Below, one piece after another: positions 3,778 to 64,000 of a stretch of 64,000 nucleotides of DNA (its first letter is position 1; every line of letters begins with the position of its first letter). This stretch comes from Chamaelirium japonicum. Lineage: Eukaryota; Streptophyta; Magnoliopsida; Liliales; Melanthiaceae. Under the pieces are notes generated by a model. That model was not told the origin of the DNA, ran no database searches, and worked only from the letters and a program-made list of their open reading frames with translations. The DNA lies in NCBI GenBank assembly GCA_947650365.1, contig OX393550.1, positions 73,499,478-73,563,477 on the forward strand. Direction: 5' to 3'. The position numbers were made by a program, and so were the translations under genes.

Positions 3778-3954
3778 TGTTACGAAGAGAGAGGGAGAGA
3801 AAATAGGTTTGGGAAGAAAAACTCATTGTATTATCTCATCAATCTCATTGTCATTACACAAGACTACCTGTCCTTATATAGTGAGAGAATGCACACCTTT
3901 ACATTACCACAACCGAGGTGGGACTAATAGAATACTAACACACTACATCTAATA
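3778..3954 (-). repeat. 3' LTR of non-autonomous element
   Basis: Direct repeat of 6704-6880, beginning tgttacgaagagaga on the plus strand, with only scattered differences. A TATA-like ccttatata lies inside. Confidence 0.8.
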
Positions 3955-13004: not shown

Positions 13005-13811
13005 TGGTTTAAAGCAATAGTTAGGGTCTACTACAATCTATTTTATGGAATTTAGAAATAGATAATGTCTACTCTAGCCGCTATGTCTTCACCACCTCAA
13101 GTGGAGACATCCAGGAATCTAAATTCCCTGGGCTCGAGCACTGAGACTATCGGCCCTGAATTGGAGACAACATCTCGGTGAGAGCATGCAACCGCTTCTG
13201 CCAACGGAGTTTTTACGACCCAGTCTTCTTCAGAATTACCCACGGCAAACTGAAAGACCTCCCAGTCTCTTTTTGGTCAGCTTTATGTGACCCACGTGCG
13301 CAACAACAGTGGCTTCACACAAGCTTTCGGATGCTTCCCACAAATCTAGGTGGTGTCGGCAGGGGGGTTCATAGACTCCTGCGGTGCAGGATAAAACCGT
13401 CACCCACTGCCACCGGCATCCTCCATGTCCCGAAGGAAACCACTAGGCGAAGCAGCATGGAAGGAAACACAGCTCTCACCCGGTAGGAATATCGAACTGC
13501 GTACCTCCCACCCAGACTCTTAGCCGGTTGATTGTGGAGGCCAGGGGCTCCCCTTTGGAGGGAACCTCTTACACATCCCTTCTTTATGAGGTTTTATGCA
13601 TATCTAGATAGGTCACGACCTCCTAGACATAGACCCTGGTCTACCGTGCTCCCACTAGGATTACAAACCCTCCCGCAAAGCATTAGTATCCTCAGAAAAT
13701 ATCATAGTCCCTACCTTGAATACTCAGCTTTCGCCTTTCTTGCAAGGATCACATTATATAGATTCCAAGGAACCCGATACTTCACTAGTTTGCCCACAAT
13801 CCTAAGATCTG
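13005..13811 (-). other. Leader of copia copy 1, part next to gag
   Basis: Untranslated leader between gag and the inserted element. It aligns with 60765-61588 in copy 2. No gene is supported here; the frames at 13178 and 13532 are not matched as proteins in copy 2. Confidence 0.6.
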
Positions 13812-35562: not shown

Positions 35563-38500
35563 CTACCTTCCCGTAATCACTGTAATTGTCACATCATTTT
35601 CAGAAATAGCGTCAAGGTTAATCATCGATGGATCAGATCCACTTGATCTTCTCTCATTCGTAAAAGTGGGTTGTTTGGGTATTGTCTGAATGCTAGTATC
35701 GCTTCCCAGCATCAGAACTACCAAAGACATGGTGGGTCTATCATCCGGATGATCTTGAACACATAAGAGCCCTACTTGTATACATCTCAACACTTCTGAA
35801 GGTGAGCAAGTATCCTCCATTGATGGGTCTATCAACTCTCCTGCTCTCCCTTCTTTCCATAGATGCCATGCCTACAACATCAGAACTATTTAGATAGTTG
35901 CCATACGTACAACAAATGGGAATGTAAAATATAGCTTCTTTCATACTTACATAGCTCAAAAGGTTCTGAGAGCTTTCGTAGTGCCAGAACGTGTTGTTCT
36001 TCTTGCCGCTGACGACCTCTAAGAGTATTACTCCGAAACTATAGATATCGGATTTCATGGAAAACAACCCTTTCATTGCGTACTCAGGAGACATATATCC
36101 ACTGCAATCCATCAAAAATGAGAGAGAGGAATGAAGGTGGATAAGTGATATAATTTGAAATGATGGTCGACTAAAACTTACTATGTTCCGACCACTCGCT
36201 TGGTTTTTTCTTGGTTTTGATCACCTCCGAAAATCTTGGCAATCCCAAAGTCTGATATTTTTGGGTTCATCTCTTTGTCCAGCAAAATGTTGCTGGTTTT
36301 TAGATCCCGATGCACTATCCGTAGCCTCGAATCTTCATGGATATAGAGAAGCCCTCTTGCAATCCCCTGTACTATAGAAAAACGGTTCCCCCAATCTAGC
36401 ATTGCTTGCTTCGTTGAACCTATTCACAATCTGTTAGTCAGATTTCTTTTGCCAATAATATTATAGATCATGGTTTCTTAATCTATGCATTGAAGATTTG
36501 TTTCTTGGATGAATTACTCATTAAAATCATATCAATAGGACATGATTGAGTAAGGACTCACCGAAGACAAAGGCATCCAAGCTTTTGTTCGGCATGTACT
36601 CATAGAGCAATATCTTCTCCTCTCCTTGAATGCAACAACCTAAAAGCCTAACAAGATTCCTGTGTTGTAACCTTGCGATTAGTGTCACTTCATTCTTCAA
36701 CTCCTCTAAACCCTGCTCCGAACTCTTCGAGAGCCTTTTGACAGCTATTTCTCGTCCATCGGGTAGCTTACCCTGAAATGTAGCATAGTTTTAGCAGTAT
36801 TTCTACAGTTTTGCAACTCATTCACCTGCTATATTCATTGAACATGATGGAAGAGATTCACTTTACCTTGTACACGGCACCGAATCCACCTTCGCCGAGC
36901 TTATTCGAGTCACAAAAGTTGTTGGTGGCTAAAGATATGGTATTAAAATTGAACAACACTAGCTCTGGAACTTTTCTCCTGTTGCCATCTCTAGAATTTT
37001 CCGAGCCTAAAATCTCTGTTGCAACTTCTTCACTGAGGCCCAAATCAAATAGTAATATCTCTCGCTCACTTTCCTTCTTCGAATGATCTGAGTGGTGCAA
37101 AAGATGGAAAAAAGCTCCAATCAATGACTGAAACAAGATATAAGTTGTCATAATATGAGATGAGGTGATGATGAATGTGCTGTGGACCTTTAGCTCTTTT
37201 CTTCCACCTCCATAGGATGTAAATAAATGTGGTAAGAATTATGGCTACCAGGGGAGCAACTAGTATGATAATTTTAAATGTTCTTCTTTCATCTGCAACA
37301 GGAAGGAAGGATCAAAATGTCATTCAATCTTCAAAGAAATCATTAGTCCATTGCAATAGAACTATATGAATTAGATGTAATTTAGGAGAATTACAGAGCA
37401 AGTCCTTACCTAATTCAGATTCTGCGAGCCGAATATAGAGAGTGTACCCACCGCTTGAAAACTGGTAGAGATCCACCAATTCCCGATGCCACACAAAGCA
37501 CCCCATGCCATCAGAGAAAGCATAAGCCATACATGAGCAGTTCTTTAAGCACTCATCCTCACACCCACTGGCATACAAGACATTCGCAATCCCATTCGAG
37601 AAGTCCGGTAGCTTCATCTCTTCCAGTCTCAAGAACCCATCTCCTTTCTGATCCATCTCCATGCTGTTTGTACTGTTCCTCCCACATGTTAAGGGTGTTT
37701 TTCGAACGCAGCCACCCCTCCAATTCCCACTCGTCCATTCATCCACATGTCTCGGCTCGAACCCTCTCAAACAGCTGCACATTGGCCTCCGGCTATCACT
37801 GTAGCTGCACACACCATGCCGCCCACAACGGTTGTAAATCTGGCATTCATCGCTGCCAGGAGACGAGAGGATCAGATTCCACACCTTGGCATCTTCCGAC
37901 CAAATGAGGTACTGATCGGATCCGTACCATGTCAATACGAACCTCACTAGAGTTCCAGCCGACGGGGTGTACGAGTAGTACATCTTCTGGTCATGGTTGA
38001 GCTTGAAGCTGGAGCCTTGGAGGTATGGTTTGTTCGGTATGCCGGTGAAGGCTATGCCGTTCCACAGTCCAGACCTCCAGTATGGCTCTAGTCCTTCCCA
38101 TACAAAGACTTGATTCGAGCCGTGGGGATCCATGCCCATCGAAAAGCTCCCCTGTGAGGGGTCATCATCGCTCCTCCAGGATGTTTGGACTTGGTTTGCG
38201 CCCGTCCTCAGGTCTAGGCCATATGTCATGCCAGGAAGGTAGGTGTCCGTCGGAAAATCGAAGCTCTGCCACACGACGCTTCCCATGTTGCTTCTGAGCA
38301 AGAGGTTTCCGGTATCAGTGAGCTGCACGACCGAATTGTTCGGTACCACCATCGAAGCATTCGATGACCAGATCGTGTTGCTCTTGCCGTCCAAGACTAA
38401 AAGGTTGCCGCCACTTCCGACGGTGAAGCTTCCAGAAGAATCCGGCAGCGGGTGCTCGCGGTTGGCGACCCATACCACCGTCGACGGAGAGATGTCGTGG

Positions 38501-38730
38501 TACCATATCCCGACGTATCGGCTGGTGGACTTGCCGGGGCTGAAGAATCCCAGCTCGAAGATGCGGCCAGCGGAGACTATGGTTTGTCCGTCGAGGAGGG
38601 ATTGGCCTTGTGCTATGGTGTCTGTTGCATGAGAGAAGGGAGAGCTGCAATGGGAGAAGAGAAAGAAGCAAAGGAGGAGGAGGAGGGGGAGAAGTCTTTC
38701 CTTGTTGACATTATAACGAATAGAAGCCAT
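35563..38730 (-). CDS. G-type lectin S-receptor-like serine/threonine kinase, copy B
   Basis: Plasma-membrane receptor kinase; ligand unknown. Seven exons by GT-AG sites: 38730-37410, 37292-37188, 37087-36867, 36772-36562, 36419-36182, 36101-35951, 35871-35563. They sum to 2,556 bp and 851 residues without a stop. Order: signal peptide (about 1-35, Leu-rich), B-lectin domain (about 36-155), S-locus glycoprotein domain with WRSGLWNG, a Cys-rich EGF/PAN part ([12 protein letters not shown] near 400), one membrane helix (about 446-466), then kinase. [10 protein letters not shown] is 540-549, the ATP-binding Lys 561, HRDLK 656-660 with catalytic Asp 658, and DFG 676-678. Seven exons and this order are usual for the S-domain family (SD1/B120 type). 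The start at 38730 was chosen over an upstream ATG at 38754 because it gives a better signal peptide and is shared with copies C and D. It looks intact. Exact lectin and PAN limits are approximate. Confidence 0.9.
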
Positions 38731-39460
38731 GCATGTAACAGAAATTGTAATCAAAACCTTTGGAACTTCATTTGGATCCTTAAAGAAAATCCCTCCTCAG
38801 AGAGTTCCAAAAAAACGAAGGATTGAAAGCATTCAAAGTTGGTGAGTTCAAACTGCGGTCAAAGCATTGAATCTTCTCTAGTCGGTCGGTGGACCGAGCA
38901 TCACCACCGCATGGAGCCGGCCGGAGTCCGATTGACTTTCGGGTCACCTGCCATCCTGCGGCTGTGATGCACGAGAGCGCACCAACCGGGCCGACCGTTT
39001 GGAGAAGACCTAAACTCTAAACAATTCTTCACCAATTTTTCTTGGAGACAGGTGCAAAGAAAAAATAAAAAATTGCCGGTGACTATCTGCCGCCAATAGT
39101 CCCCGATACAATTTTTTTTACGGTGGGTTAGGGTTTTAGTGACGAGGAAGAAAGATGAGAATGAAAAGTAAGAAGGGGAGGAGGAGGAGGGAGGGGGCAA
39201 TGGGTTGCATGGGAATAGATTTGTAGTTTTAATCTGCTGGATCTTATTACTGCAAGAATTTGATATCGAGATTCACGATGAGAAGGGTTCGGAGAACGTC
39301 GTATTTGACCATTTGTCACGATTGATAGTTGATTCATTGAGTCTTTATTCATTTCTGAAAGTTTTCCTGATGAACAATTGATGCATATCTCGATCTCCTA
39401 CCCGTGTTCCTTGATCTTGTTAACTATCTTGCCACGGAACAAATGCCGGAATCTTGGATT
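38731..39460. other. 5' flank of receptor kinase B with a gypsy relic end
   Basis: Holds the promoter side of copy B and matches, in pieces, 27-301, 3746-3777, 6881-7069 and 19502-19650. The part from about 39297 is the start of the gypsy relic also seen at 19502. It shows the empty target sites for the elements at 3778 and 7070. I could not place a TATA box reliably. Confidence 0.6.
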
Positions 39461-40617: not shown

Positions 40618-43772
<3,155 letters not shown>

Positions 43773-44350
43773 GCGAGTAACAGAAATTGCAATCAACACC
43801 TTTGGGACTTCATTCGTAATGGATGAGAAATTGAAATCAATTCATGAGAGCTTCGATCAGAGTTTCTCCTCAGAGAGCTACAACTCCTATCCTTCAAGAA
43901 AATCCCCAAAGACCGAGTGATAGAATGTTCGCTCCGGCAGCTCGTGCCGCGCAACCTGCGGCGGCTCCTCGAGATCTGTCGTCGATCTCCTCAGATCGCG
44001 CCACCTGCCGCCGCCGCCGCCGCCGCCGCCGCCGCTTCCAGACCCTTCTCCACCGGCTTGAGCTACGTGAGCACGTCCACACCTTCTCCGTTGTCTCTTC
44101 CGGATCTGATTTCAAGCAAGTTGTTTGATTTTGTTCATCTGTTTCAGGTCGTGTTTTCGGTAATGACTCCCCCCCCCCCCGCGTGACCACGTCTCTCTCT
44201 CTCTCTCTCTCTTCCTATTTCTTTCCTGGGAAAATTGGGTCAAATTTATCTGTTTCTCTCTCTTTTCCTTTTTCTTTCTCGGAAAAATTGGGTCAAATTT
44301 ATACTACACCATTTGAAGTGAACTACGATGATGTGATTTTTATTTTTTAA
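43773..44350. other. 5' flank of receptor kinase C; GC-rich with GCC repeat
   Basis: Upstream of copy C lies a GC-rich stretch (about 43930-44130) with a GCC trinucleotide run near 44006-44034, then a C10 run near 44168 and a (CT)n run near 44190-44210. Short open frames exist on both strands, but none is recognisable and their Arg or Ala runs come from the GCC repeat. It could be the CpG-rich 5' end of a lost gene on the plus strand; unproven. Confidence 0.35.
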
Positions 44351-47088: not shown

Positions 47089-47104
47089 CACTACGTCAAA
47101 ATGT

Positions 47105-47370
47105 TTTAAAAACAACGGCCCAAGGCCGTTGTTTTTCATATAATACAACGGCTATAAGCCTTCGTAAGGGCCGTCGTTTTTTAAGACGTGGTTTAATTAT
47201 ACGACGGCTCGAAACCGTTGTTTATTTCGTCGTATTTATACAACGGTTTTAAGCCGTCGTTATTATGTTTTATTACGACGGTTACCACTCGTAGTTTATT
47301 GAAGAAAATGAGTTGCAGCCGTCTATTTCTGTAGTTTAGAGACGGCTGTAGACCGTCGTTTGGACATACA
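47105..47370. repeat. Left subterminal repeats of the CACTA element
   Basis: Short motifs of the type acaacggc / gccgttgt / acgacgg recur about nine times in both orientations within 270 bp. In En/Spm such subterminal motifs bind the accessory transposon protein. Their role here is by analogy. Confidence 0.75.
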
Positions 47371-48260
47371 TAGGTTAAAAAAAAATACAGCAACAATTTT
47401 TCTTTGTTTATGTACACATGTACAGAACCACAAGAAGTACTCTGTTTACATATACATACAGATCCATAATGAATCCAAAAATATCAAAACATCCACAACA
47501 TGAAAATTAATTTTTAATTTCATAATATTCACCACATCCACTTTGTTCAAAAAAATATAACTGAAACAAATTCCATACTAATAGTTTAAACATAAGAATT
47601 GTCGGATTATTACATAACATTTCACATGACTTCTAAAAGCCAAGTCTATAAAGATAAGTAAACCACAAAGAAAGAAGGCCACACTATGATCTCTCCGGGT
47701 GCGCAATCGCCAAACGTAGCGCCTCCCCCATCAAGCAAAGTTTGACTGGCATCGGTAATATCCTCAAGCAAAACTTGTACTGTTGCATTATCAACTGTTG
47801 ACCCTGGAGCTGCATCGATAACCTTTCCTAGAGCAACAGTTGCCTTCTGAAAATTCTTCAAAACATATGGACCGGTCCGTATGGATGGTTGCTCCTCAAA
47901 TGAACTTTGGGGATGTGACGCCTACATAAGAACAATGATAGAAATTTATTATATCCCTCGATCATCAAATAAAGGACATGAGTACAAGACTTCAATTGGT
48001 ATCAAGGTACTTAGAAAAATAAAGATGATTTTCATACTTGCATAGAAGTACAAGGATTAAAATATGCATGTGATATGCAATACAAGATCACATCACAACT
48101 AAAACAAAGAGGATTCATGAGACAGAATGGGAATACATGGTCTTTTGGTTCGATTGAAGGCCTTTGGGTTGGTAATGTTTTAATATTGTGTATCCTTAGT
48201 ATTTACGTAGTTTACATACCCGGTGTATAAATTGACTTCCATGTAATTTGTCACTCTCAG

Positions 48261-48734
48261 TTACACAGTCGAAGCATTGGAAATGTTGCTGTTGCCCATG
48301 GCAAAAGATGCTACCGAAGCCCTTGGCTCAATGGGAAATAATGCTCCCTTGGCTGTAATGTCGAATAGAGAGAAGATTCCATTTGAGTATTTTAAACAGG
48401 TGTTTGCTCAAGTTACAAACAAACCCACCAATTGATCCAATTTGAGAAAAAATAGTTACATCTATGCAGTGCATGATAGGTCCGGAGGGGGATCTTACTG
48501 AAACCACTGAAGAGCAGTGTCATCGCCTCACATTGAAAGGGCCTATTCTATCCGTTGATGAAATGGAAGCTATTAAAAAGATGAACTATAGATGTTGGCG
48601 TAGTAAAGTACTTGATATCACTTATTCTAAAAAGCATGGTCGAAAAGGTTTAGAGGAGACTTTGGATAGGATCTGCTCTGAAGCTCGTTGTTCTATTCGT
48701 GAAGGATATACTACACTGGTGCTGTCAGACAGAG
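48261..48734 (+). pseudogene. Captured glutamate synthase exon (GOGAT, NADH type by recall)
   Basis: The plus strand encodes, with two disruptions, a segment matching plant glutamate synthase: [20 protein letters not shown], then [31 protein letters not shown], and in one open stretch from 48464 [20 protein letters not shown] and [13 protein letters not shown]. This is the central domain that joins the amidotransferase and the synthase parts. By memory it is closest to NADH-GOGAT (GLT1). It starts right after an intact acceptor (tctcag, 48255-48260) and ends at an intact donor (gag|gtaagg, 48735), so one exon with intron edges was taken as DNA. A 4-bp repeat near 48417 shifts the frame and a stop lies near 48450. 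It sits inside the CACTA transposon, opposite in strand to the transposon genes. Not a working enzyme. Confidence 0.88.
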
Positions 48735-49163
48735 GTAAGGGTTATCTATAGCTTAAGAGCTTAATTTTATTCATTCTTGCACAAATTTGTCAATTTAGAA
48801 AAAGGATAATATCATGAACTCCTTTCATAAATAAGATGCATCTATCTTGTTCTCATGTGTTTCAAGGAAAAAGTTGATCCATATCACTATTTTATGTTTC
48901 AAGAAAAAAGTTGATCCATATCACTATTTTATGTCACACTAAAAGAAGCCTTATAACCAAGTACATTAAAGCTCTGTTGATCATATCAAACAAAATTGCA
49001 GCTAACAATTTACCTGATGACTGTTGTCGGCATTGGACGAGTGATCCTGTTGTTTCTTATAAAGATCAACCTTCTTCTTAAGCTTCCGATACTCATTTTT
49101 ATTGCACTCCAGTCTCTCCCTATATCCACCCGAAGCAATAATTGTGGTTTTAGACACTCCACT

Positions 49164-49908
49164 TGTGACGACCAAGATCCAATAGGCCAATAGCCAAGAG
49201 CCAAGACTCCTGAGGCGGAAATGCCAAGATGGATGAGGTGAGGTGAGGTGTACAAGGCCATGAGTTAGCCCCACATCGCTTGGAGAGAAGGAGATCCTGA
49301 GCTACTTATATAATTTTCCCTCCCAAACATAGAAGACGCGTTTTAAAACCGTGCGCCGCTACGGATTTCGTAAGAACTCCGTAGTTAAGCGTGCTCGGGC
49401 GAGAGTAGTACCAGGATGGGTGACCTCCCTGGGAAGTTCTCGTGCTGGCACGGGCAAAACGAACAATATCTTGTGTGTTTGGGGTGGATGTTACAAAATG
49501 GTATCAGAGCCGGTTCTCCTCGCTATGGGGGGGTCTAACCCTACACGAGGACGTGTAGCCCTAAGGGGGGGTGGATTGTGACGACCAAGATCCAATAGGC
49601 CAATAGCCAAGAGCCAAGACTCCTGAGGCGAGAATGCCAAGATGGATGAGGTGAGATGAGGTGTACAAGGCCATGAGTTAGCCCCACATCGTTTGGAGAG
49701 AAGGAGATCCTGAGCTACTTATATAATTTCCCCTCCCAAACATAGAAGACACGTTTTAAAACCGTGCGCCGCTACGAATTTCGTAAAAACTCCGTAGTTA
49801 AGCGTGCTCGGGCGAGAGTAGTACCAGGATGGGTGACCTCCCTGGGAAGTACTCGTGCGGGCACGGGCAAAGCGGACAATATCTTGTGTGTTTGGGGCGG
49901 ATGTTACA
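49164..49908 (+). mobile_element. Cassandra-type TRIM retroelement with 5S rRNA-like LTRs
   Basis: Two 332-bp direct repeats (49164-49495 and 49577-49908), TGTGACG to GTTACA, surround an 81-bp core holding a primer-binding site (tggtatcagagcc at 49499) and a purine tract (aagggggggtgg). Inside each LTR is a 5S rRNA-like stretch (near 49371-49435 and 49784-49848) with gttaagcgtgctcgggcgag and ggatgggtgacc, the 5S internal promoter region. This combination defines Cassandra, a non-autonomous TRIM. It has no coding capacity. It is inserted in an exon of the CACTA second gene. A clean 5-bp target duplication is not visible; only ACT is shared. The LTRs are very similar, about a dozen differences by eye. 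Confidence 0.93.
49371..49435 (+). other. 5S rRNA-like sequence in Cassandra left LTR
   Basis: Matches the central and 3' part of plant 5S rRNA including the pol III internal control region (gaactccgtagttaagcg, then gatgggtgacctcc). It is part of an LTR and not a ribosomal gene. The second copy is at about 49784-49848. Confidence 0.88.
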
Positions 49909-51199
49909 AACTACCCATGGCTCGTACGCGTCCTCGATTGTCACGGCCAATGACCTTTCAAGTATACAAAATACGAGTTACTTATTAATAGTTACTTTAT
50001 AGTCATATAGACATTTACTTAAATTGATTACAAACCTGTGCAACCGGATTATGATTTAAGTCTCTAAATCCGACAGAGGGGTCTTCAGTAATTATTCTTT
50101 TGAGCTCAGTCTTAGAAATAAATAAATAGCTATTACTAAGTCGATAATGACATGCATGATAGTCAAAATAATATTACTATTGTATTAATCTTATTCATAC
50201 TGTATGCTCGGTGGAAGTAGGAGTTGGAGATGTCCCATCCTTTCGAGTATGTGTGGCTATGTATCTCTGTGTCCTATTGAGCGTAATACCAGGATTATTC
50301 TTCATCTACAAAATGTTAAATGTATAAATTAATATAGATGATAAAATCTTAAATTTTTTGACATGTATTCAAATTTATTAAGTCTTACCAGCTCATCTGC
50401 CGTACATGCAGCTCCCCGTCTGCCAGTCGTGTGGGGGCTATGCATCGCCTCTCTTGCTGTCTTCCCCCTTTCTCGAAGTATGTGATAGTCATCCGAGGAG
50501 CACATGTCGACGAACCACTCCCAGTCCTCCCGCCTGACATAAGATGGCACCTCTCTCTTCCTCTTTGCATTTGTGGCTTTGGTATCAATATACTTCTTAA
50601 CCAACTTGTGCTTCCACTCCTTCCATCGTTCATTGGCCTTTTTTAGGATCCAAGTGTGGTATAGTTCAGAAACAATAAATTCTCCCTATTGTAAATGATC
50701 ATATTTATCAGTAGTAAATAAATTGTTATAACTCAAATAGAAAGACTTTTTAATTTAACATGTATTTACCATCAATGAGTCCAATATCTGTTGTTTGCTT
50801 TCTTCTGGCACAGTACGCCAGGAATCATACGCAGGTGAGCAATGTATCCTTGCAAGCGATCCAATCCGTGATGTGAAGGCAGCTTTGTGCTCTCCTATTG
50901 CATGCCCATCTGTGTCCCATCGAACCCTTTTTCGAGTATCTACGATGTAAGACTAAGACATTATTAGAAAATTATTGCACAAATATTATTATGCTTATAT
51001 AAACAAGTGGTATTAAGTAAATATAAGACAATGATTACATTGATCATCGCTAATATCAGTACTCGATTGGCTATGTGTATCGACCACATCTGGTGAAATA
51101 GGTGGTGTTGAGGATGATGCACCACCATGTGTCATATCTCCTGAAATTTATAAAAATCCACTTATAAGAGTGTTATCAAATAAGAAACATTAATTTATA

Positions 51200-52130
51200 C
51201 ATGAACTGTCAATGTGAAAAAGCTAATTGTTAGCATGCTAGCAAGGAAGGGTTCAGTAGGAAAAAGCAAATTTAGGGAATGCCACATATTGAAGGTTCAG
51301 AAGGAAAGTAAAAGTCTATACATGCTAACATGTTTAAAGCCTTTGAATATACACTTTTCTGAAGGCTGCTCAGTTGAGGGCTTCCTTTTGACGCCTGGAT
51401 ATGGTAGTGGTCGCAATTTGGGAGATAGGCAATTTTTTTACGTAAATGATAGACCTGTTGATATGCCGAAGGTCAGCAAACTTGTAAATGAACTATATAG
51501 AAGTTCAAGTACCAGACAATATCCCATTGCAATCATGAACTTTATTATACCAACTTCGTCTTATGATGTTAATGTAACTCCAGATAAGAGGAAGATATTC
51601 TTTTCTGACGAGGGCTCCCTTGTGCTCTCCCTAAGAGAAGCTATGGAGAAGATATATGCTTCACATCATTGCAGTTATTCTATAAATAAAATCGAGGAGC
51701 CCAAGAAAGAATTAGATACTATTGAGTTGGATGTTTATCAAGAGAATCAGGATCACGCTGCAGCATCTAGACCTTTATCTCCTGAAGGTGTTGGGCAAAA
51801 AGAAGCGGCATGTAGTCAGAAGCTCATTGCAGATGATATTTCATCCGAGATGCTACAAGTGCAATCAGAAGTATGTGGAAACGGGAAATGTATATGGTAA
51901 CAAAAGCTCTCCATCAAAGGATTTGAATGTTAATATCTTTGAGATGAACAAATTTGAAAGTCGTTCTCACTCTCAGGATAAGCAGCCAAGTAGCGCCCCC
52001 ATGCCACATGAAAAGTTTGATGGGCAAACTCCTTTCCGCGCAAGATCAGTGAAGAAAGATTTCCAAAGAATGCAGGTTCCTGATGTACTTGTTCTCAAGT
52101 ATCTGACATTCAAGAAATCCAGTAAATTCT
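51200..52130 (+). pseudogene. Captured PMS1 (MutL-type mismatch repair) fragment
   Basis: An open frame at 51214-51900 contains VEGFLLTPGYGSGRNLGDRQ, FFYVNDRPVDMPKVSKLVNE, RQYPIAIMNFIIPTSSYDVN and VTPDKRKIFFSDEGS. These belong to the transducer (second) domain of plant PMS1, downstream of the ATPase domain. It continues into the Ser-rich linker; from about 51870 the linker is carried on in another frame to 52130 (SSPSKDLNVNIF, RSHSQDKQPSSAPM). The ATPase N-terminus and the C-terminal dimer/endonuclease domain are absent, and the first 35 or so residues of the frame fit PMS1 poorly and may be intron. It lies inside the CACTA element, convergent with the transposase gene ending at 52385. A hybrid transcript is possible; a functional repair protein is not. 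Confidence 0.88.
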
Positions 52131-52384
52131 AAAAAAGTAGAACCAGTTTGAGCATATTGATCAATAAAATTCCAATGTCAACAAAGTTTTATTTTTTGCA
52201 TCATCAGTTCCACAACCCATCATGAAATTCCAATATCTGTAGAGAAAGTAAGAGATATAATTAAGATCAATGTACAAAATAAAAAAACAAAAAGAGTCAG
52301 AAAGAAGAACAATGATTTCTATCTTAATTACCTCCGATTTTGAGTTCAACTCATAACCTTCGGATAGCGAATAGAAGACTGGTG

Positions 52385-55300
52385 CTATGATGAATCTTCA
52401 ATTTCTTCTGATTCATCATACTCCATGATATCATCCACTAAGGCAGTTGTAAAAACATCTGAATTCATTCTTGCCTCAAATACTAATGGATCTTCATAAG
52501 CATCAAAATCTTGACTTAATTTCTTCGGAGTATCCAAGGCTACATGCCAATTATCTCTGGTGAGATCCTTAGCGTAGAATACTTGTCTTGCTTGAGTTGC
52601 ATTAATAAAAGGTTCATCATCTTCCCTTGAACGACTTTTGAACCTCCCAAGATTTACAAATATCAAGTTCGTTTCTGGATCAACTATACAACCATTTACT
52701 CTATCTTCTATTCTAACCCAATCACAAAGGAAGACTATTTCTTTGAAGTCATAGTAGTCTAACTCAAGTATTTGTGTGATAATCCCATAGTAAGTAGCTT
52801 CCTCTTGTACAAGGTTCTTATCCTTCCTACTTGCCCTATAACTAGTTATGGCATTTATGGTGACCCCACTGTTTTGTGTAGTCTTACCCATTTCTGATTC
52901 CGCTGTACAAAAAATATATCCGTTCGCCGCATAAGCATTATAGGAAATGGCATGAAAATTTGGACCGGAAGCGAGCCGCTTGCGGTGAGACATTTCATTG
53001 TTTTCAAGTTGATTTCTGAGCCAAGGAATGTATTCTACCACCCTTTCTGCAGCAAACCTTTGTTTTTGACAACTAGATATGATATCTTCTTTGTATATCT
53101 CATATTTCCTCTCCCACTCGGCATTGTCTACAGACTGCTGCAACACCCATCTGCGCACTTGTTGGTACTGCACATTGTCAAGAATATAATTCTTTCCTTT
53201 TTTATCAATTGGGTAGGAACAATCGACATCAGCATCCACCAACATCCTCTGACTTGCCTTATGGCTTCCTTTTCTATCTTCGGATGGCATGTACTCCATG
53301 TAATACGACATTGACTCTTCCATGAGGTATCGTTCTGTAATACACCCCTCTGGGTATGTTTGATTCCCTACATATGATTTATATGTCTTCATCATCCGTT
53401 CGAAAGGAAACATCCATCGATATCGTACTGGTCCACAAATTAGCACCTCCTCTGCCAAATGCACTAAAAGATGCGTCATAGAAACAAAAAAGGAAGGTGG
53501 AAAATACTTCTCAAGCACGCATAATGTCTCCACAATTTGATTTTTTATTTTTGAAAGTTCTCTGCGAGCAATGACCTTTGAGCATATGACATTAAAGAAC
53601 ATCGATAACTGGAGAATAGCAGCACGTGATGCCTTTTGTTCTTTAAATGCATGCATTAGTAGAACTGGTAGTAATTGCTACATGAGGATATGGTAATCAT
53701 GCGACTTCAAGCTTTTCAGTTGAAATTCTTCTAAACTCACATTATGTTTCCAGTTCGCACTGTATCCAATAGGAACCTTCATTGTATATAATGTTTGACA
53801 AATTAACTCCCTGGCCTCTCTTGACGGGATAGACAAAATGGAGCTTTAGGTAAGGACAACTTGTTATTCTTCTCCACCGGCCATAATTTTTTCCGAATCT
53901 TCATAGCCTTAAGATCCAAACGGGCTTCAAGACCATCCTTAGTCTTACCCTTCATGTCCATAATAGTTACAAAATGATTCTCCACCATATTTTTCTCCAC
54001 GTGCATCACGTCCAGATTATGACGAATATGGAGATCTTTCCAATATGGCAAGTCAAATAAGATAGACCTTTTTGACCAGGCAGATGGTGTACTCTCAATG
54101 TCCACACGCTTTTTTCTTTTTTTCCCCGATAGCTTTTCAAACATTGTCTGAATACTTTCCATTTTATTTAATACTTCAATTCCAGTTAACCTGCGAGGCC
54201 TACTCCCATTTTCTTCCTTTCCATTAAACTGTGATTTTTGTGACCTGAAAGGATGTTTTGGATCTGTTAGGAATCTTCTGTGCCCCATATATGCAAATTT
54301 CTTCCCATTTGTTAGCCACACCGAGTCTATCTCTTCACTGCAAACTAGACACCCATACTTACCTGCAGTCCTACAGCCAGAAAGATGGCTATAGGCTGGA
54401 AAATCATGAATAGCCCACAATAAAAGAGCCTCCATCATGAATTTATTCCTCTTATTTGCATCATAAGTATCTGCTCCGGTGGACCATAATTCATTCAACT
54501 CTGCAATTAATGGCTGCAAGTAGACATCAATTTCATGCCCTGGACCATTTTTTCCTGGAATCAACACTGATAACATGGTGAACTCCTTTCGCATGCACAA
54601 GGATGGAGGAAGATTGTATGGAACAATCATAACAGGCTAACAACTATATGAGTTATTCTTATTTCCAAATGGATTGAATCCGTCAGTTGCAAGTCCTAAC
54701 CGAACATTACGTTTCTCAGTAGCAAAATTGCTCCATTTACGATTCACTGATTTCCACTGTGGGGAATCCATTGGATGACGCATATGGGTATCATTTTCCA
54801 TTACACTTGCATGCCATGTCATTTGCTCAGCAATCCATGGTACACTATACAATCTTTGCAACTTTGGTGTTAAGGGAAAATATCTTAACTTTTTCCATGG
54901 TAAACGTTTACCTCTCGAATTACTTTCATTACTCGGTTTCCATCTACTTTCACCATAGCTTGGACAACTATCGTTATTTTCATACTCCCTCCAATATAAT
55001 ATACAATCATTACGGCAAACATGGATAATTTCGTAGCCCATGCGTAAAGATTTCACCAATTTTTTTGCAATGTAGGTGCTCTCTGGCAAAGTGTTCTGAT
55101 TTGGTAAAATCTTCTTTATCATTTGTAATAGCTCTGTGAATCTCTTATTAGACCAACTGTGACGCGACTTCATGCTCAATAACTTAACTGTCACTGACAA
55201 TTTAGTATGCTCATGTTGACATAAGGGGGACAATGGTTGAATGACATCCTCCATCAACTTGCTATAAGCAATATCCTGTCTATCATCAGTCTGATATGGA

Positions 55301-55683
55301 GCCTCGCTTTCATTGTGACTTTCATTCATATATGTATCTAAGTCCTCAGAATAACCACGTCCAAATGTGTCATTCACCATATTGACCATACTTGGGAACA
55401 CATCTTCTTTGTGTTGCAACATAGATGATGTACCAGTAACATCTTTCTCACGATGCAGTATGGGAAATGATTCTCCATGATGGAACCATATTTTATATGA
55501 CTTATCTATACCATTACATATCATATGTTCCTTGATAACATCTGTTGTTTTCTTTCCCTTCAAGTTACGACACTTAACACATGGACAATAATACCAATCA
55601 GAATTCCCTAATGAATCCTTTGTGAACTGGAGGAATAAGTCGACGCCAAATATGTACTCTTTTGTCCATCTCTGTGCATTCAT
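52385..55683 (-). pseudogene. CACTA transposase, TNP2 type
   Basis: Minus-strand coding region starting MNAQRWTKEYIFGVDLFLQF at 55683. Domains in order: transposase-associated domain with CPCVKCRN (about the first 75 residues), a linker, the TNP2 catalytic part (GLATDGFNPFGN; SVLIPGKNGPGHEIDVYLQP; HDFPAYSHLSG; YGCLVCSEE; LDVMHVEKNM), then DUF4218 (SKVIARREL, FPPSFFVSMTHLLVHLAEE, YRWMFPFERMMKTYK) and DUF4216 (YYGIITQILELDYYDFKEIV), ending at 52385. It cuts and moves CACTA elements by binding their ends. Three breaks are visible: a TAG at 54637-54639 where the family has Trp before PVxxxPYNLPP, a frameshift near 53840, and a TAG at 53678-53680 inside a SHDYHILM-QLLP motif. The rest is well kept, so inactivation was not long ago. 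Confidence 0.88.
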
Positions 55684-55699
55684 TCATTCCTTGCTTGGG

Positions 55700-57180
55700 G
55701 GAGTCAAATACATTTTCTACATAGAATAGACAGAGATATCAAATTTTAATTATGACCAGGATTGTGTAAGATTAATAAAAAATAATTATCAAGATATTAA
55801 GTCTTGTCATCTTCTTAATTATCAACAAGGCTTTATTAGGACTTAGATTATCAAGAATAAAAAAAACACATATAGGACAACACTTCGCTAAAAGGAGCAT
55901 AATACAGATATTGAGTTAAAAACATAATACAAGGTTCACCTCATGTCAAGTTATCTATTGCACATCTCATGTGAACAAGCAGATTAAATATCAATATTAA
56001 AAAAAAAACATTGTGATAATGGATCTGCTTAAATTTTTAAAGTAGAAATCTCGGCTTTATTTATATTATATAGCATTATTAATTCCAGTTAGCCACATAT
56101 GTTCTATACTATAGAAACTGTGGAGTGATTTAAAATAGAAATAACTAGAATCATTACCTATTTGTCCAATATCATAGTAAATATGAACAACCCCGGTAAT
56201 GTGAATCATTTAACTATGGGGATATTCTTTGCATAAAGATATAGTACCCGTTAAGGTAGTGGTCTGCTCTAGTCTACCAACATGTAATCATATAAAGGGG
56301 CTTGAAAATACCAAGCATGATATATCATGCTTGTAAATTTTGGTTAATACTATAAAAAAAAAAACACTTTCAATAACGTATAGTTGTACCATAATACAAA
56401 GTTACTAACTACTAATTGAGAAGAGAGAGATATGATGTAATATTATAAACTGGATTCGAACTTCCACACTTTTTATATTTTGTAAGCTTTAATAACTGGC
56501 CAAACAAACTAAGAAAATATCAGATCTATGTAGAAATACCAATCATCCAAAAGTGCTCCTTAAAGAAAAGACCAAACAAGGCATTAGATCTAACATAAGA
56601 AATGAGCTATAATATGCAATTCCCTTTTTTAATCCTTCTTTTGATGTAGTGTTAGGCCCTTTTGTTTGGAAAATACTCATTTTATTTTTATATGCAGCTT
56701 TACTAAAAAAGTGAAAAACCATATAGAAGAGTAATAATTCAGTAAAAAAGTTAGTAACGATTATTTAAAATCACGTTTCATGGTAGCCACTATAGTGATT
56801 TTAATGTAGCTGCTTGACATACTTGTTGCGTTAGGATTTTGTTGTCGATGTTGAATGAGCCATCTAGACCATTGATTGGAGAATATAGAGCCATCTGATT
56901 ATCTTTATAATATGCTACAACTGTTCACAAGCTAACTAGGACAAAAAACCACGGGATAGATCTAGACGTCGATTAAGATCTGAAGGGAGAGAGAGGAAGA
57001 GAGAATTCAAATGGACCATTTTCCCATGTAAATATGACTCTCAGAAATCCGATTAAGACCTACTATAAATATATTAAAAACCTATTGTAAAAATAACAAA
57101 TACATATTCAATAGCATTTAATTGCTATTTGATATTAATTAGTATTTTTTTAATGTTAATTGGTACTCTCTATCTCTAAT
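55700..57180. other. AT-rich region upstream of the CACTA transposase
   Basis: No gene recognised. It presumably includes the promoter and any leader exons of the transposase. An outer inverted repeat arm lies at about 56850-56900 (see 57290-57640). Confidence 0.4.
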
Positions 57181-57289
57181 AAGTAAATCACACTCCGAAG
57201 GCATGTGGCTGTCAGAGTACTAACGGGCACGTCGCCGCCAAAGGCGGCTATCCAAGTGCGGACGGACGTGAGCATTTACTAGTACTTTT

Positions 57290-57578
57290 CACACAGCCAC
57301 GACCTCTGCATTGCACTCATACCCTTTTTATATACAATCAGATTGTTCCCTTTTCTCTTGCATATTAGGTTAAGGCACATATGCCTCACGTAGCATCTGC
57401 AGCGAAATCTCCAAGCAGTAAAATTTTTCTCACTGCTGAAATTTTTTTACCGTGTGGGGATTTTACTGCAAAATGCTGAGTGAGGCATCTGGACGGTTTC
57501 CTAATATGTAGGAAAAAGAGAGCCATCTGATTGTATGTAGAAAGGGTACGAGTGCAGTGCATTGGTCATGGTTGTGTG
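57290..57578. repeat. Foldback (MITE-like) palindrome inside the CACTA element
   Basis: The left arm (cacagccacgacctctgcat, from 57293) is the imperfect reverse complement of the right arm (about 57525-57578, ending atggttgtgtg). The pairing continues inward (gcatattagg with cctaatatg) to a centre near 57440. A further outer pair, about 56850-56900 with 57583-57630, shares atcagatggctct with its reverse complement. No target duplication was fixed. Confidence 0.65.
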
Positions 57579-57834
57579 TAAAGCATAATCAGATGGCTCT
57601 CTATTCTTCCATCAATGGTCCAAATGCCTCACTCAGCATTTGCAGCAAAATCCCTAGGCAGTAAAAAAATTTCCAGCCTTGTCCTGTGACCTCCTGGCCG
57701 TTCCATCAAAAAAAAAACAAAAAAAAAAAAATTTGCGGAAACCCCTATTGTTTAAATTTCTCAATAATTGCTGCAATTGCATTCAAATCTTAAGAGGATT
57801 TCAGAATATATGGCAGGAAAAAAAATCATAATCA

Positions 57835-58200
57835 AAATTTGAGCAAGCTTTTACATAGCACCACCACCACTACCACCTTCATCACCACCAATCGCCGTAG
57901 GATTCGACGATGGATGCAAGAAGGAAGGAGAGGGTGGTAGTTGTGGAGAGAGGAGGATCCGAGGAGGCGGCAGATTTAGAGAGAGACGAACCTGATGATT
58001 CGAGAAAAGAGGACAACAACGGTCCAAGACGAAGGGAAGCACCGATCTGAGGAGAAGGGAGCGGCAGTCGAAGGATGGGGCAATGACGATCCGATGAGAA
58101 TGGGAGCAGCAGTGGCGATTCGATGAGAAGTGGTGGTGCGATCCGATGAGCAGAGGAGCGGCGGTGAAACGAGAGGAAACTAAAGGTAATTAGGGTTATT
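57835..58200 (-). other. GC-rich stretch near the right end of the CACTA element
   Basis: Short imperfect repeats with gatccgatgag and agcggcag and a (CCA)n-like run at 57859-57890. It could be an untranslated first exon or promoter-near leader of the transposase. No protein is recognised in the 63-residue frame here. Confidence 0.35.
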
Positions 58201-58229
58201 AGGTTTCCTTTAAAAAAAAAAGGTTATTA

Positions 58230-58390
58230 TGTTATAAATAACGACGGCCACATCTCAATCGCTGATGCAGCCAGTAACTATTCCCCACCCGTGGCCTCTG
58301 TAAACATCATAAACGACGGCCGTTAGCCGTCACTAAATGCGTGTTTTTTTGCAACGGTCTATGACCGTTGTTTTAGGAGCCGGTAAACAG
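58230..58390. repeat. Right subterminal repeats of the CACTA element
   Basis: About five copies of motifs such as aacgacggcc, gacggccgtt, caacggtc and accgttg in both orientations, the same family as at the left end. Confidence 0.72.
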
Positions 58391-58418
58391 TGGTTTTTTA
58401 GGACCTTTTGACGTAGTG

Positions 58419-59629
58419 TTTGACGGTGCTCCCCACCGCTTGAGTCGTATCATGGCACTAGAAATAGGAGGGACTAAGGATTATCAGAGTATAGTAGAGA
58501 ACAGGGTTATGAGGGAGTAACATAAGTTCAGGATCACTAGAGTTTAACTCGCGTCGCACTCTGGGTGGTTATACGGGTTAATCGGATTAGGGCTGATTAA
58601 CGGAACTTTCAGTGTGTCACCGGAACAGTTAATCAGGGATCCGGTTAGAGTTAGAGATCCTGAACCTTGAAGGTTCCACCATGTCGTTGTGTATAGGAAT
58701 TGTTCCCCGATCTGGATGGATACGTTGGATGCAAAGTAGCGCGATGGAGCGCAAGCCTGGAGCCTAAGAACCTAATTCACATGTGTTAGGGGCCGTAGGG
58801 GTATTTTGATAAATACTAAAATATGGCTCAGAACATATTGAATATGGATCTTAGAATGAGCGGAATAATTTCAGGAGCTCATAAGCGCTGACGGAACTCG
58901 ATTCCGATTAGCGCACCTCACTCAATATCTCTTTCAGTTTTTCACTTTTCGTGAAGGGCGTTTTCATCCAGGCTTCACGATAGACACTTGGAAACCCTAA
59001 AACCGATCCCCCCTCATCCTAATCTCTTTAGGGCCGGCCCTAGCTTGCGTATGGCACGAGGAGGCCAGCCCTATATGTAGATTGGAGGGGGAGGGGCCGG
59101 CCTAAGGTGCTCCCCCTTTCCTAAAACCCGACCCCCTCTCTATCTCTCCCTCTCTGAGGTTTCGGCCAAGGAAGAAAGAGGAAGAAGGAAGAAGAAGGAG
59201 GAAGGAAGGAGAAGGAAGAAGAGAGAAAGAGAAGGAGAAAATCTCGTGGCTCGCCATCGTCTTCGCAACGGATTCCTCCATCGGCTCGTAGTCCTTGCAC
59301 TCAGAGGTAGGACTTCAAGGATTCCTCCCTTCGCAAAGGATAAGGTGCTATCCGACAGCTTCCCTTGCGATTCACGTGCGGTTTATCATCGTTCCGTTCT
59401 CTCCGGATCATAGATCCACAAGGTATGATGATTCTAAACACCTAACTACATGCATGCATGTCTTCCGTAGATCGTAGTATGCCTCTAGGGTGTCCGCACA
59501 TATGCTAAGATCATAGATTTGCATGTAGATTGTTTTGTAGAATTAATTATAATAAAACATACATCGTATGATCTTCGGATCTATCTTTTGCTTTCGCTGC
59601 GACTCTGATAAGAGGATCCAATGATAACA
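58419..59629 (+). repeat. 5' LTR of copia copy 2, right part
   Basis: Continues the LTR interrupted at 47088, matching in reverse 7070 to about 8270. It ends ...gataacaa just before the primer-binding site. Confidence 0.9.
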
Positions 59630-59631
59630 AA

Positions 59632-61588
59632 TTGGTATCAAAGCACGCTTTGGTGTGTGTTTCATGCATGAATTTGTGAAAACATTATGTGAATATATGA
59701 TAGCATATGTTTTCGTCGATGTTCGGCGTAGATCATGCATATGGATTGTGCTATGTATCGTCTTTTTGCAGGTGCCGCGCTAAACAGTAATCTGTGATTG
59801 CATGCCTCCGGGGGTCGGACCCCGGATTTAATTTTGCATTGATTATTATAGTGGTTGTGGATTTTAAGGCTCTAGATGGGCGAGGGTGGAGGTTGACCAC
59901 CCTCGGATCCCTGGCCATGTTTCTAGGATTGTTTCTTTTTCTTTCTAGCGAAATTATACACGAATGAGCACTTGCTCGGAGTGTGTTAGTTTTTCGATCA
60001 CAAGAAAGAATGAGATGATGCTACATCCACGGTTCGGGCAAGCGGTACCATGGTGTGCAAAGACCCAGCAAAAGGTTGCACATTGGCGATGATCGGGATC
60101 GTCGTCAGATATTGTGCAGAACGGAAGAGTAGGTTATCTTGGCTGTGCTATTCAGGTTCAGGGGGCGGACCCTGGACTTGATTCAGTTTGGATGCTATTT
60201 CTGTTGATTCTCTTTACTTAGTGTTTAGAGAACCTCGATGATAATTTAATTATCTATCTTGCTTGTGAGTTTGTCTCTAGATCAAGCTCAGGGTTAGTAC
60301 TTGGCTTATGGATTCATCGGTGTCGCTATATGGTTCTAACACGTGTGAATCCGGTGGCTAGCTAAAAGGAAAGGTGGTAACCGCCCTCGTGGTAGTTCAG
60401 GTAGCCAAGTATTGTGCACCGAGATAGACGCAGTGTTAGATTTGTTTAGAGATAACTAATGTCCCCATAAGAAGTATGATAACCCTAGTGGGATGCCTTT
60501 TTCCCACATGGTCCTTGCGACCAAGTTAGGTTAGGATTCTACTAAGTGATACCCGTTTCTAGTTGACGTTTGATGGTAGTGTGAACTCATTACGATTTGG
60601 TTATGCCACCATTAGGTTGAGGTCCGACAGAGGTTGTCGGATGTCCCTATTTGGCCAGCATCGAAACCTATAATGAGATGAGGTTTACTATGACATCAGG
60701 CATCAAATTGTGAATGAGACGTCATTCTAGTGGGAGTCCTTTCCATGTTGACCTTAGGCTAGGCTCAAGATCTTAGGATTATGGGCAAACTAGTGAGGTA
60801 TCGGGATCCTTGGAATATATGTAATGTGATCCTTGCAAGAAGGATAAAAGCTGAGTATTCAAGGTAGGGACTATGATATTTTCCAAGGATACTAATGCTT
60901 TGCGGAAAGGTTTATAATCCTAGTGGGAGCACGGTAGACCAGGGTCTAAGTCTAGGAGGTCGTGACCTTTCTAGATATGCATAAAACCTCATAAAGAAGG
61001 GATGTGTAAGAGGTTCCCTCCAAAGGGGAGCCTCTGGACTCCACAATCAACCGGCTAAGGGTCTGGGTGGGAGGTACATAGTTCGATATTCCCACCGGAT
61101 GAGAGCTGTGTTTCCTTCCATACTGGTTCGCCTAGTAGTTTTCTTCGGAACATGGAGGATGCCGATAACAGTGGGTGACGATTTTTTCCTACACCGCAGG
61201 AGCCTATAAACCCCCATACAGATACCACCTAGATTTGTGGGAAGCATCCAAAAGCTTGTGTGAAGCCGCCGTTGCTACGCATGCGGGTCACATAAAGCTG
61301 GCCAAAAGGAGACTGAGAGGTCTTTCTGTTTGCCATAAGTAATTCTGATGAAGACTGGGTCGTAAAAACCCCGTTAGCAGAAGCGGTTGCATGCTCTCAC
61401 TGAGATGCTGTCTCTAATTCAAGGCCGATAGTCTCAGTGCTCGAGCCCAGGGAATTTAGATTCCTGGATGTCTCCACTTGAGGTAGTGAAGACATAGCGG
61501 CTGGAGTAAACATTATCTATTTGTAAATTCCATAAAATAGATTGTAGTAGACCCTAATTTTTGCTTTAAACCATTATTTACAAAAATC
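59632..61588 (+). other. Long leader of copia copy 2 with primer-binding site
   Basis: Begins with tggtatcaaagcacg, the initiator Met-tRNA primer-binding site. The following 1.9 kb matches the leader of copy 1 in reverse (16415-17526 and 13005-13811) and lacks the 2.6-kb insertion, thereby showing its empty site near 60770. No gene. Confidence 0.8.
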
Positions 61589-64000
61589 ATGACCAAGCTC
61601 GACCCCCTTGCCTCCATCCTTAATGATAACAAACTTACGGGACCAAACTATGAGGACTGGAAGCGTAACCTGATACTCGTCCTAAGGGTTGGCAAATACA
61701 CAATTGCCCTAAGCACCCCTCAACCGGCCATGCCGGGACCAAGTGCTACTGAGGCTCAATTAAAGAAATGGAAAGACTGGCTAGACGCTGATGAGATGTG
61801 CAAGTGCTACATAGTGGCATCCATGCAGACCGTCTTTCATAAGCAAGTCGAAGACATGGCCTTTGCTTCAGACATGATGCTCTATTTAAAGGAAATGTTC
61901 GAGGGTCGTAGTCGGGTAACTCGTTACCTGACCATCAAGAAATTGGTGTCCACGAAGATGGCAGAGGGGACTTTAGTTCGGGATCATATGCTAAAATTGT
62001 TTGGCTATGTGAATGAGCTTGGTTCCTTCGATATCATCTTGGACGCAGAGATCCAGACCGATATTTTTCTCGCGTCTCTGTCAGGATCGTTTGAGGGCTT
62101 CGTTACCAACTTTAACCTTAACCGATTGGAGTTGTCTAACGCAGAACTTCTAGTGGCGCTCCAGGCGGTAGAGGACGGGATGAAGGCAGGAGCCCAATCC
62201 CTAAACGTAGAGCGGAAGTCTTTTCTGAAAGCCAAAGGCAAGTTTCAAAAAAGAAAGTCTAAGAAGCCCGTAAAGATGGGCCAGGTGCAGTCGCAGGTTC
62301 CTAAGCAGGATGGTCCGGCAAAGCGCAAAGAAAATTTTTTTCGATGCGGCAAGAAGGGGTACTGGAAGGGCGACTGCCGCGCAGCTCCCAAGAAGGCTGA
62401 GACAGGTATATCTCAAATCCATATAGTGGAATCCCTTGTAGCATCCAGTTGTTCTCCAGTTTCATATATTGTGAATTCTGGTTCCACTAACCATGCTTGT
62501 AATAACTTGCAGGGGTTCAAGGAGATAAGAAAACTGGGTGATGGGGAGATGATCCTAAGTATGGGAACTGAGGCCGTGGTAGAGGCTGAAGCAGTTGGAG
62601 ATATCGTCTTGCAGTTTCTTGATGGAAGAAGTTTATTACTTAGAGACATACTTTATGTATCGTCCTTGAGACGAAACTTAATTTCTATTTCCTTATTGAA
62701 TAATGAAGGTTTTTCAGTTTTATTTGATGCTTCTTGTGTGTCAATTAAATTGAATGGTTCCTTTGTTTGTAAGGGAAAGATACATAATGGTCTCTATGTA
62801 ATTAACTCCAATCATAAACAGGATAACATAACTGAAGCTTCTGTGGTTAATTCATTTAAAAGGAAAAATCCCTCAGATAATCCAACACTCCTTTGGCATC
62901 TAAGGCTTGGACACATAGCCTCAGACAGGATTCACAGGTTGGTTAAGGTAGGACTTTTAAGTCCAGATATTTCAGAAAGCCTACCAACATGTGAGTCTTG
63001 CCTGGAAGGTAAGATAACTAAAAGATCTTTCCGAGCCAAAGGTAGCAGATCTCAGGAGGTATTAGAGTTGGTAAACACTGATGTATGTGGGCCCATAAGT
63101 GTCCGTGCCATAGGAGGCTTCGAGTATTTCATCACCTTCACAGATGATCACTCGAGGTTCGGTTACATATACCTAATGCGGTGGAAGTCTGAATCCTTTG
63201 ATAAGTTCAAGGAGTTCAGAGCTGAAGCAGAAAAGCAGACGGGTAAAAGTATCAAGTCTCTTCGATCAGATCAAGGAGGCGAATACCTATCGGATAAATT
63301 TATTGGATACCTGCGTGAGCATGGGATCGTATCCCAGTTGACAACACTAGGGACACCGCAACAAAACGGTATATCTGAGAGGAGAAACCGAACTTTGTTA
63401 GACATGGTTTAGACTATGATGAGTTATGCAACATTGCTACCTAGTTTTTGGGGATATGCCCTAGAGACGGCAGCATATACTTTGAACTTTGTTCCATCAA
63501 AGTCAGTACCTCTAACTCCTTGGGAGCTGTGGTTAAAGTGAAAGCCAAGCATACAGCACTTTAGGATTTAGGGTTGTCCAGCACATGTGCGAAAGGACAA
63601 GCGAGATAAGATGGAGTCAAAGACTAAGGTATGTCTATTCGTTGGGTATCCAAAAGGGACAAATGGTGATTTATTTTATGATCCTGAGGATAGAAAGGTT
63701 ATCGTCTTGACGAGCGTCATATTCCTAGAGCAGGATTATTTAATAGACCATAAGCCCACCAGTAAAGTAGTTCTTGAAAAATTGCTTGGTATTATTGGGA
63801 GTATGCAGACAGAAAACGTAGTGGGAGCCGATACCACTACGATAAACGATACTGTAGAATCGACTCCTATGTAACCACTGCAGGCTCGTCGCAGTGGGAG
63901 GACCACAAGTGCTCCTGATAGATACATTGGAGAAGCCTTCATGGTAGATCCAGAGTTTCAGGAGGATGATCCTTTGAACTATGACGAAGCGATGGTATCC
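61589..64000 (+). mobile_element. gag-pol region of copia copy 2 (partial)
   Basis: Starts MTKLDPLASILNDNKLTGPN and runs through gag, the zinc-knuckle region near 62340, protease region near 62475, integrase (WHLRLGHIASDRIH near 62895; NTDVCGPIS; TPQQNG) and the start of the integrase-to-RT linker at the window edge. It is highly similar to copy 1 along its length. Broken, with a few breaks. Confidence 0.9.

Follow-up and report, generated by a model that had tools for sequence, protein, structure and literature searches.

How a transposon comes to carry pieces of unrelated host genes beside transposase genes of its own is the question raised by a complete CACTA element in the genome of Chamaelirium japonicum. 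The element occupies positions 47089-58418 of a 64,000-nucleotide (nt) stretch of contig OX393550.1, hereafter the window, to which all plain coordinates refer; labels beginning with ‘C’ denote other places in the same genome. A preliminary description, made from the DNA letters alone, had reported a CACTA transposon with captured pieces of two host genes. This observation is confirmed, and the interpretation first given to it is partly supported. The answer that we judge to be likely is that host DNA has entered copies of this family time and again at two non-coding sites, by way of gap repair and template switching. It is this family history, and not the hybrid transcripts originally envisaged, that is the claim that matters.

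The ends of the element are as clear as was first described. Its terminal inverted repeats begin with 5'-CACTA, as expected for this superfamily, and are 24 nt each and 88% complementary (47089-47112 on the plus strand, starting CACTACGTCAAAA, and 58395-58418 on the minus strand). Subterminal repeats (repeat family D2 and inverted pairs I7 and I13) are located near both ends, extending to about 47380 on the left. A perfect TTT target site duplication flanks the copy on each side, the right one at 58419-58421. When the flanks are fused with a single TTT, query positions 2-168 align with a dispersed repeat at 95-96% in 40 of the 40 places scored (from 2,966 candidates), and 39 of these exhibit zero net length difference across the joint. 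Because the fused flanks match across the joint, an empty site is visible, and the window copy is seen to have inserted in a dispersed repeat.

The transposase genes are on the minus strand, again as first reported. The gene for the TNP2 (TNPD-type) transposase spans 52388-55683 and matches PF02992 (Transposase_21, E=1.7e-59) and three further Pfam domains, namely Transpos_assoc (1.9e-18), DUF4218 (1.1e-36) and DUF4216 (1.6e-12). It is interrupted in the window copy, where three open reading frames (ORFs; 54640-55683, 53806-54636 and 52388-53677) divide it and a 5-nt insertion is evident relative to six aligned relatives. The earlier phrase ‘nearly complete autonomous-type’ is therefore right for the structure of the element and wrong for its coding capacity, and the window copy lacks the intact transposase that defines an autonomous CACTA element. 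An uninterrupted TNP2 frame of 1,108 codons exists in two of the eight copies examined in full (C7 and C195), both of which have cargo in each of the two stretches defined below. Other minus-strand ORFs stand where the second CACTA gene, of the TNPA type, is expected, and we take them to be TNPA-like; a Pfam search with these ORFs yielded nothing above the curated cut-off. A predicted last exon is located at 47649-47921, with an acceptor TGTAG that ends at 47922, and a predicted penultimate exon at 49014-49160, with a donor GTAAAT at 49008-49013; the upper limit of this exon is uncertain and the gene model is putative. Further ORFs of this kind, with products including GEFIVSELYH and DTRKRVRWDT, are found at 50332-50952.

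Both captured pieces lie on the plus strand, antisense to the transposase genes. The preliminary description had placed glutamate synthase at 48261-48734 and PMS1 at about 51200-52130; the two identities were correct, and the two extents have been redrawn. The glutamate synthase (GOGAT) piece covers 48116-48903, includes exons with intron sequence on both sides of them, and contains the GOGAT central domain (PF04898, E=2.4e-46). Its donor is the gene at C8:62492109-62492893, to which it is 96% identical (757 of 790 alignment columns). We take this glutamate synthase to be of the NADH type. When the central piece was used to search the genome at the protein level, and five candidates were scored, two places were identified, the window and C8:62.49 Mb.

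The PMS1 cargo occupies about 51314-52101 and is composed of two pieces. It encodes a PMS1/PMS2 domain (PF01119, E=4.7e-22) and matches PMS2 and PMS1 structures in the PDB with E values down to 5e-19. Piece a (51314-52060) is 96% identical to C12:58002208-58002956, with a left limit that is soft because there are 7 mismatches to the donor in its first 26 nt, and piece b (52056-52101) is 93% identical to sequence within C12:58006719-58006773. The pieces correspond to two exon-internal stretches of one donor gene, 3.8 kb apart, and they are joined where AGAT is common to both sides (5 nt by the join finder). Because the donor sequence continues through the joint and has no splice site there, both parts of this gene were evidently copied from genomic DNA. 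A search for donor loci, which the preliminary description had proposed, thus locates both on other chromosomes (C8:62.49 Mb and C12:58.00 Mb) at 96% identity each. The GOGAT and PMS1 cargo differ from their donors by substitutions at 26 of 779 and 20 of 716 sites, respectively. Changes of the C-to-T type account for 12 of the 26 and 10 of the 20, counts made without a control from which we claim no methylation-type mutation bias.

The window copy is a member of a young, low-copy CACTA (En/Spm-like) family. A genome search with its 5' end found 12 close places, the window included, at 86-100% identity, and the remaining 28 of the 40 places scored match at 69-75%. All 292 nt are covered in 11 of the 12, and positions 49-292 in C195. 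Seven copies were read complete, namely those of the window, C1, C2, C7 (41.05 Mb), C9, C4 and C8_49; C195 is complete except for its first 48 nt, where it runs into Ns, and C3, C13, C7_14 and C8_50 were read as 5-kb stretches. Perfect 3-bp target duplications, all of them different, flank the seven complete copies (TTT, GTC, CTT, AAT, GCT, CCA and AGA).

Comparison of these copies shows that the two captures were separate events. GOGAT remnants that share a left junction occur in 10 of the 12 family copies, the window copy having the fullest version, and PMS1 cargo is found among family copies in the window copy only; the proposed search for other copies with the same cargo thus succeeded for the first gene and not for the second. 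The GOGAT left junction, including derived changes, is common to all seven rows aligned, from copies on several chromosomes. These shared derived changes argue for a single capture before the seven copies diverged, and point to GOGAT as having been acquired once, in the family ancestor, as the oldest cargo of its site. PMS1 is a later, private cargo. It adjoins a remnant (52095-52164, plus strand) that matches C10:19.8 Mb at 90-91% and, in part, sister copies C9 and C4 at 88-89%, and that is probably an older filler of the same site.

Two sites recur throughout the family. In most copies, sequence in common with the window copy breaks off and is taken up again inside 48184-48995 (slot 1) and 51278-52382 (slot 2). 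The exceptions are C1, in which all sequence between the slots is replaced, C4, in which common sequence ends at 50393, C3, which lacks 50848-54711, and C8_49, in which slot 1 extends to 57143. Slot 1, which holds GOGAT in the window copy, is located between TNPA-like ORFs, and slot 2, which holds PMS1 there, between TNP2 and the first TNPA-like ORF. By its motifs, slot 1 would be the predicted TNPA-like intron 47922-49013: the donor GTAAAT beside it is present in six of eight copies (C1 and C8_49 have lost that part), and the acceptor TGTAG in seven of the eight tested, the exception being C3, whose stretch starts beyond the acceptor. Source loci were sought with slot sequence only, and therefore the test outside the slots was for anything not shared with the window copy. 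By this measure, the sole run of at least 40 nt outside the slots of seven sisters that is not shared with the window copy is a 129-nt insertion in C9, C4 and C8_49, and the window copy has a nested retroelement of its own, described below; inside the slots 1.4-3.8 kb per copy matches 11 fetched loci, a comparison that is partly circular. The 129-nt insertion corresponds to about position 57735.

The slots of the sister copies contain overwritten and nested pieces from nine loci besides GOGAT and PMS1, for a total of 11 mapped loci plus C10:19.8. In slot 1, these pieces have overwritten GOGAT. Copies C9, C4 and C8_49 carry part of a SURP gene from C11:30.43 (99%) interrupted by C10:31.98 (98%), and C1 carries C5:76.66 (94%) together with part of an ARM-repeat gene, which matches C10:38.79 at 99% and a second locus at 85%. 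C195 exhibits a series in which C5:45.22 (98%) is interrupted by C8:18.78 (98%) and then followed by C10:44.08 (98-99%). A reduced, deletion-like version of this series is present in C7, and a series of the same type that lacks C8:18.78 in C3; C2 has C10:44.08 DNA, and in C13 C5:45.22 alone was seen. Slot 2 of C2, C7 and C195 contains C10:46.97 (96-97%), which in C7 is itself interrupted by C8:65.86 (99%, with an equal match on C311), and slot 2 of the window copy, C9 and C4 has the remnant that resembles C10:19.8 Mb. On the right side of the cargo in C2, C7, C195 and C3 lies a 49-nt near-duplicate (90%) of element positions 48021-48069.

Gene families were assigned by Pfam to the GOGAT, PMS1, ARM (4.5e-5) and SURP (3.7e-12) pieces and to none of the ORFs of the other slot pieces, for which one additional hit below the cut-off was judged to be chance. 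A kinesin-like piece in sister copies is weak (E=0.0045, below the Pfam cut-off). The ARM piece has no match among solved structures; it may resemble cellulose synthase-interactive protein. For cargo pieces that are not tied to a gene, we infer that the element received them from these loci and did not donate them.

The contents of the slots also turn over between very close relatives. C7 and C195, which are separate insertions because their 3' flanks differ, have only 6 mismatches in 10,686 aligned bases (0.06%), but large differences set them apart at three places, of about 0.76, 2.1 and 0.86 kb, and two of these are inside the slots. Copy C2, judged by its distances to other members, is a recombinant within the family. 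In the left module it differs by 1.6% from C1, by 3.3% from the window copy and by 6.1% from C7; in the body it differs by 0.46% from C7 and by 1.4% from C1, and the change falls inside slot 1.

Of 22 joins between pieces, listed by hand from the map and a subset of all joins, 11 have a clean overlap, with a mean of 3.4 nt. Microhomology of 4-5 nt occurs at 6 of the 22 joins compared with 0.43 expected for random joins of the same sources (P=3e-6), and overlap of at least 2 nt at 10 of the 22 compared with 3.8 expected (P=0.002), although these values are only indicative, given that the join finder tolerates single mismatches and the random control does not. The other 11 joins contain 1-14 nt without an assigned source, and therefore microhomology is not universal.

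Gap repair with template switching is our favoured mechanism because the pieces are unlinked and interrupt one another, because microhomology and short duplications accompany them, and because slots turn over between sisters and the switch in C2 falls in slot 1. Breaks or excision gaps in the element would be filled by synthesis-dependent repair that changes its template, turning to sister copies in the family and to unlinked host loci (abortive gap repair, or template switching). Only changes after which the transposase exons can still be read, or for which help in trans is possible, would survive. Under this proposal, cargo accumulates in an intron and a spacer because other changes to transposase exons would not survive. 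The slots would need no special sequence, and are perhaps just where changes keep the transposase genes usable.

Several observations weigh against this mechanism, starting with the hand-listing of joins, the unequal treatment of mismatches and the unsourced nucleotides just described. The slot-1 intron is a prediction from motifs and ORFs. Large deletions are found outside the slots, in C4 from 50393, in C3 at 50848-54711, in C8_49 from slot 1 to 57143, and in C9 and C4 at 56311-56812, and the third large difference between C7 and C195 runs from slot 2 into 182 nt of element spacer. Restriction to the slots could partly reflect shared ancestry. The slot-2 filler of C9, about 1.1 kb, is mostly without an assigned source, with just 224 and 50 nt matching elsewhere outside the family (at C10:19.8 Mb). 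Finally, 2 of the 12 copies, C7_14 and C8_50, have no identified cargo in the 5 kb read, where only simple-repeat and TRIM (terminal-repeat retrotransposon in miniature) matches were seen.

An alternative that we consider unlikely is that hybrids arise from two neighbouring copies, whose outer ends are used in an aberrant excision that encloses the DNA between them. This is the Pack-CACTA model of Catoni et al., published for Arabidopsis (as outlined in the summary within PMC13317346), and the 49-nt near-duplicate beside the cargo of four copies could have been left by overlapping copies. However, many rounds of this process would be needed for pieces that derive from many loci on other chromosomes and interrupt one another, and the PMS1 cargo combines parts 3.8 kb apart. 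It also fits less well because, in the 20 kb retrieved around the GOGAT donor and around the PMS1 donor, no family sequence besides the cargo was found.

Still less probable, in our judgement, is that the cargo is kept for its action, whether through hybrid or antisense RNA directed at GOGAT and PMS1 or as host-like camouflage against silencing, the latter an idea already in print (PMC8978399). The GOGAT, PMS1, ARM and SURP pieces are all antisense to the transposase genes. However, the weak kinesin-like piece reads in the sense direction, and therefore we reject a general rule that cargo is always antisense. Moreover, sisters that are 0.06% apart already differ in cargo, which is unlike the expectation for gene-specific retention, a 4-nt insertion absent from the donor disrupts the GOGAT reading frame, and both pieces differ from their donors by the substitutions noted above.

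Misassembly that placed the fragments here is very improbable: the genome is in 3,253 contigs and C195 runs into Ns, but the GOGAT junction is common to copies on several chromosomes, each of the complete copies has a perfect target duplication of its own, and the window copy has an empty site. Insertion of reverse-transcribed host mRNA, to which the union of distant PMS1 parts might be attributed as the work of splicing, is rejected as scarcely credible for these two genes, since GOGAT retains intron sequence on both sides of its exons and the PMS1 joint lies at a microhomology, away from splice sites.

The repeated uptake of host DNA into two slots by repair can be compared with known systems, with the caveat that each comparison extends to the excerpts of the cited reports that were available. 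The element is known in kind: CACTA capture is well known, with 140 events reported for wheat chromosome 3B, and we describe here a well-resolved variant. The Tpn1 family also has common ends, 3-bp duplications and varied captured pieces of host genes (PMC5105172, PMC8195511). However, its capturing copies are described there as non-autonomous elements in which host DNA has replaced internal sequence, whereas several copies of the present family retain the transposase region and differ mostly in two stretches. Under the packFinder rule, as excerpted, a Pack-CACTA element is non-autonomous and without a transposase match; the window copy has host coding DNA between its terminal repeats and a strong TNP2 match as well.

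The expectation in the preliminary description that cargo-bearing CACTA elements usually lack transposon genes is not supported in that form, given the transposase-bearing cases in grapevine and Chenopodium. The grapevine examples Cactavine-5, Hatvine-6 and Pifvine-3 are elements with captured host sequence that belong to transposase-bearing families (PMC2528002). Cactavine-5 has a pentatricopeptide repeat (PPR) piece that lies downstream of the transposase ORF and is oriented the opposite way, and Hatvine-6 copies share similar transposase and ends and have a variable, partly host-derived region; layered overwriting, a locus-by-locus mosaic or a two-slot structure within one CACTA family is not described in the portion of that report consulted. 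Chenopodium CACTA elements have transposase domains, gene pieces outside the coding sequence and seemingly capture-prone regions (PMC8978399), but the pieces are upstream of ORF 1, and the excerpt does not describe repeated exchange between sister copies. Soybean Tgm-Express1 likewise unites pieces of five unrelated host genes, with exons and introns, in one CACTA element (PMC1947982), although this 5.7-kb element is described as made up of those pieces, whereas the present family keeps its transposase region. A mechanistic precedent is the gap-filling model for animal Pack-TIR (terminal inverted repeat) elements, in which microhomology-guided template switching fills breaks in DNA transposons (PMC8277862). 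More than half of the cases cited there lie within 15 kb of the parental copy, whereas in the present family the donors of placed copies belong to other chromosomes, and the products continued to transpose. Among the matches listed in a literature search, judged by title and start of abstract, none describes a CACTA family that bears transposase and in which two slots, in intron or spacer, are overwritten one capture after another.

The pickup of host genes by DNA transposons is explained in print in two ways, as gap repair with template switching and as hybrids of neighbouring copies. This family offers a readable series, with the same stretches, ancestral cargo, interrupting captures from identified sources, partial microhomology, differing sisters and a recombinant. 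The series suggests that a family can capture host DNA and yet keep its transposase, as long as introns and spacers are where the cargo falls. More speculatively, the C7/C195-type lineage, which is potentially self-mobile, could be a rewritable exon shuffler, in which nearly every move, through repair, renews two fixed non-coding bays from unlinked host genes and splicing keeps the cargo out of the transposase message; we regard this as possible and somewhat doubtful. If true, cargo capacity and self-mobility would coexist in this lineage.

Additional features accompany the element. A nested TRIM that was missed in the preliminary description (49164-49908, plus strand) consists of two long terminal repeats of about 330 nt, contains a 300-nt direct repeat (96%), and has a 5S rRNA-like stretch in each terminal repeat (RF00001 at 49336-49454 and at 49749-49863, the second exactly at the gathering score). 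It is a Cassandra-like element. It is missing from six sister copies that span its site, and the empty site is seen in C7. A cluster of inverted repeats at 56827-57673, with arms 73-96% complementary, is also present in sister copies and perhaps represents nested foldback or MITE-like (miniature inverted-repeat transposable element) insertions. By eye, C7_14 and C8_50 contain LINE-like (long interspersed nuclear element) and Helitron-like ORFs. In the C8_50 region (C8:50760301-50765300), ORFs for a Helitron-like helicase fall within bases 2764-5000, inside or beside a diverged family member in which shared sequence stops at window position 48118, which is the GOGAT junction.

Elsewhere in the window, two long minus-strand ORFs (37324-38796 and 42384-43841) resemble S-locus/G-type lectin receptor kinases by eye, and are perhaps tandem paralogues. 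Copia-like gag-pol ORFs were likewise recognized at 9246-13037, 28415-32356 and 61541-63412, the second of which is one open frame of 1,313 codons.

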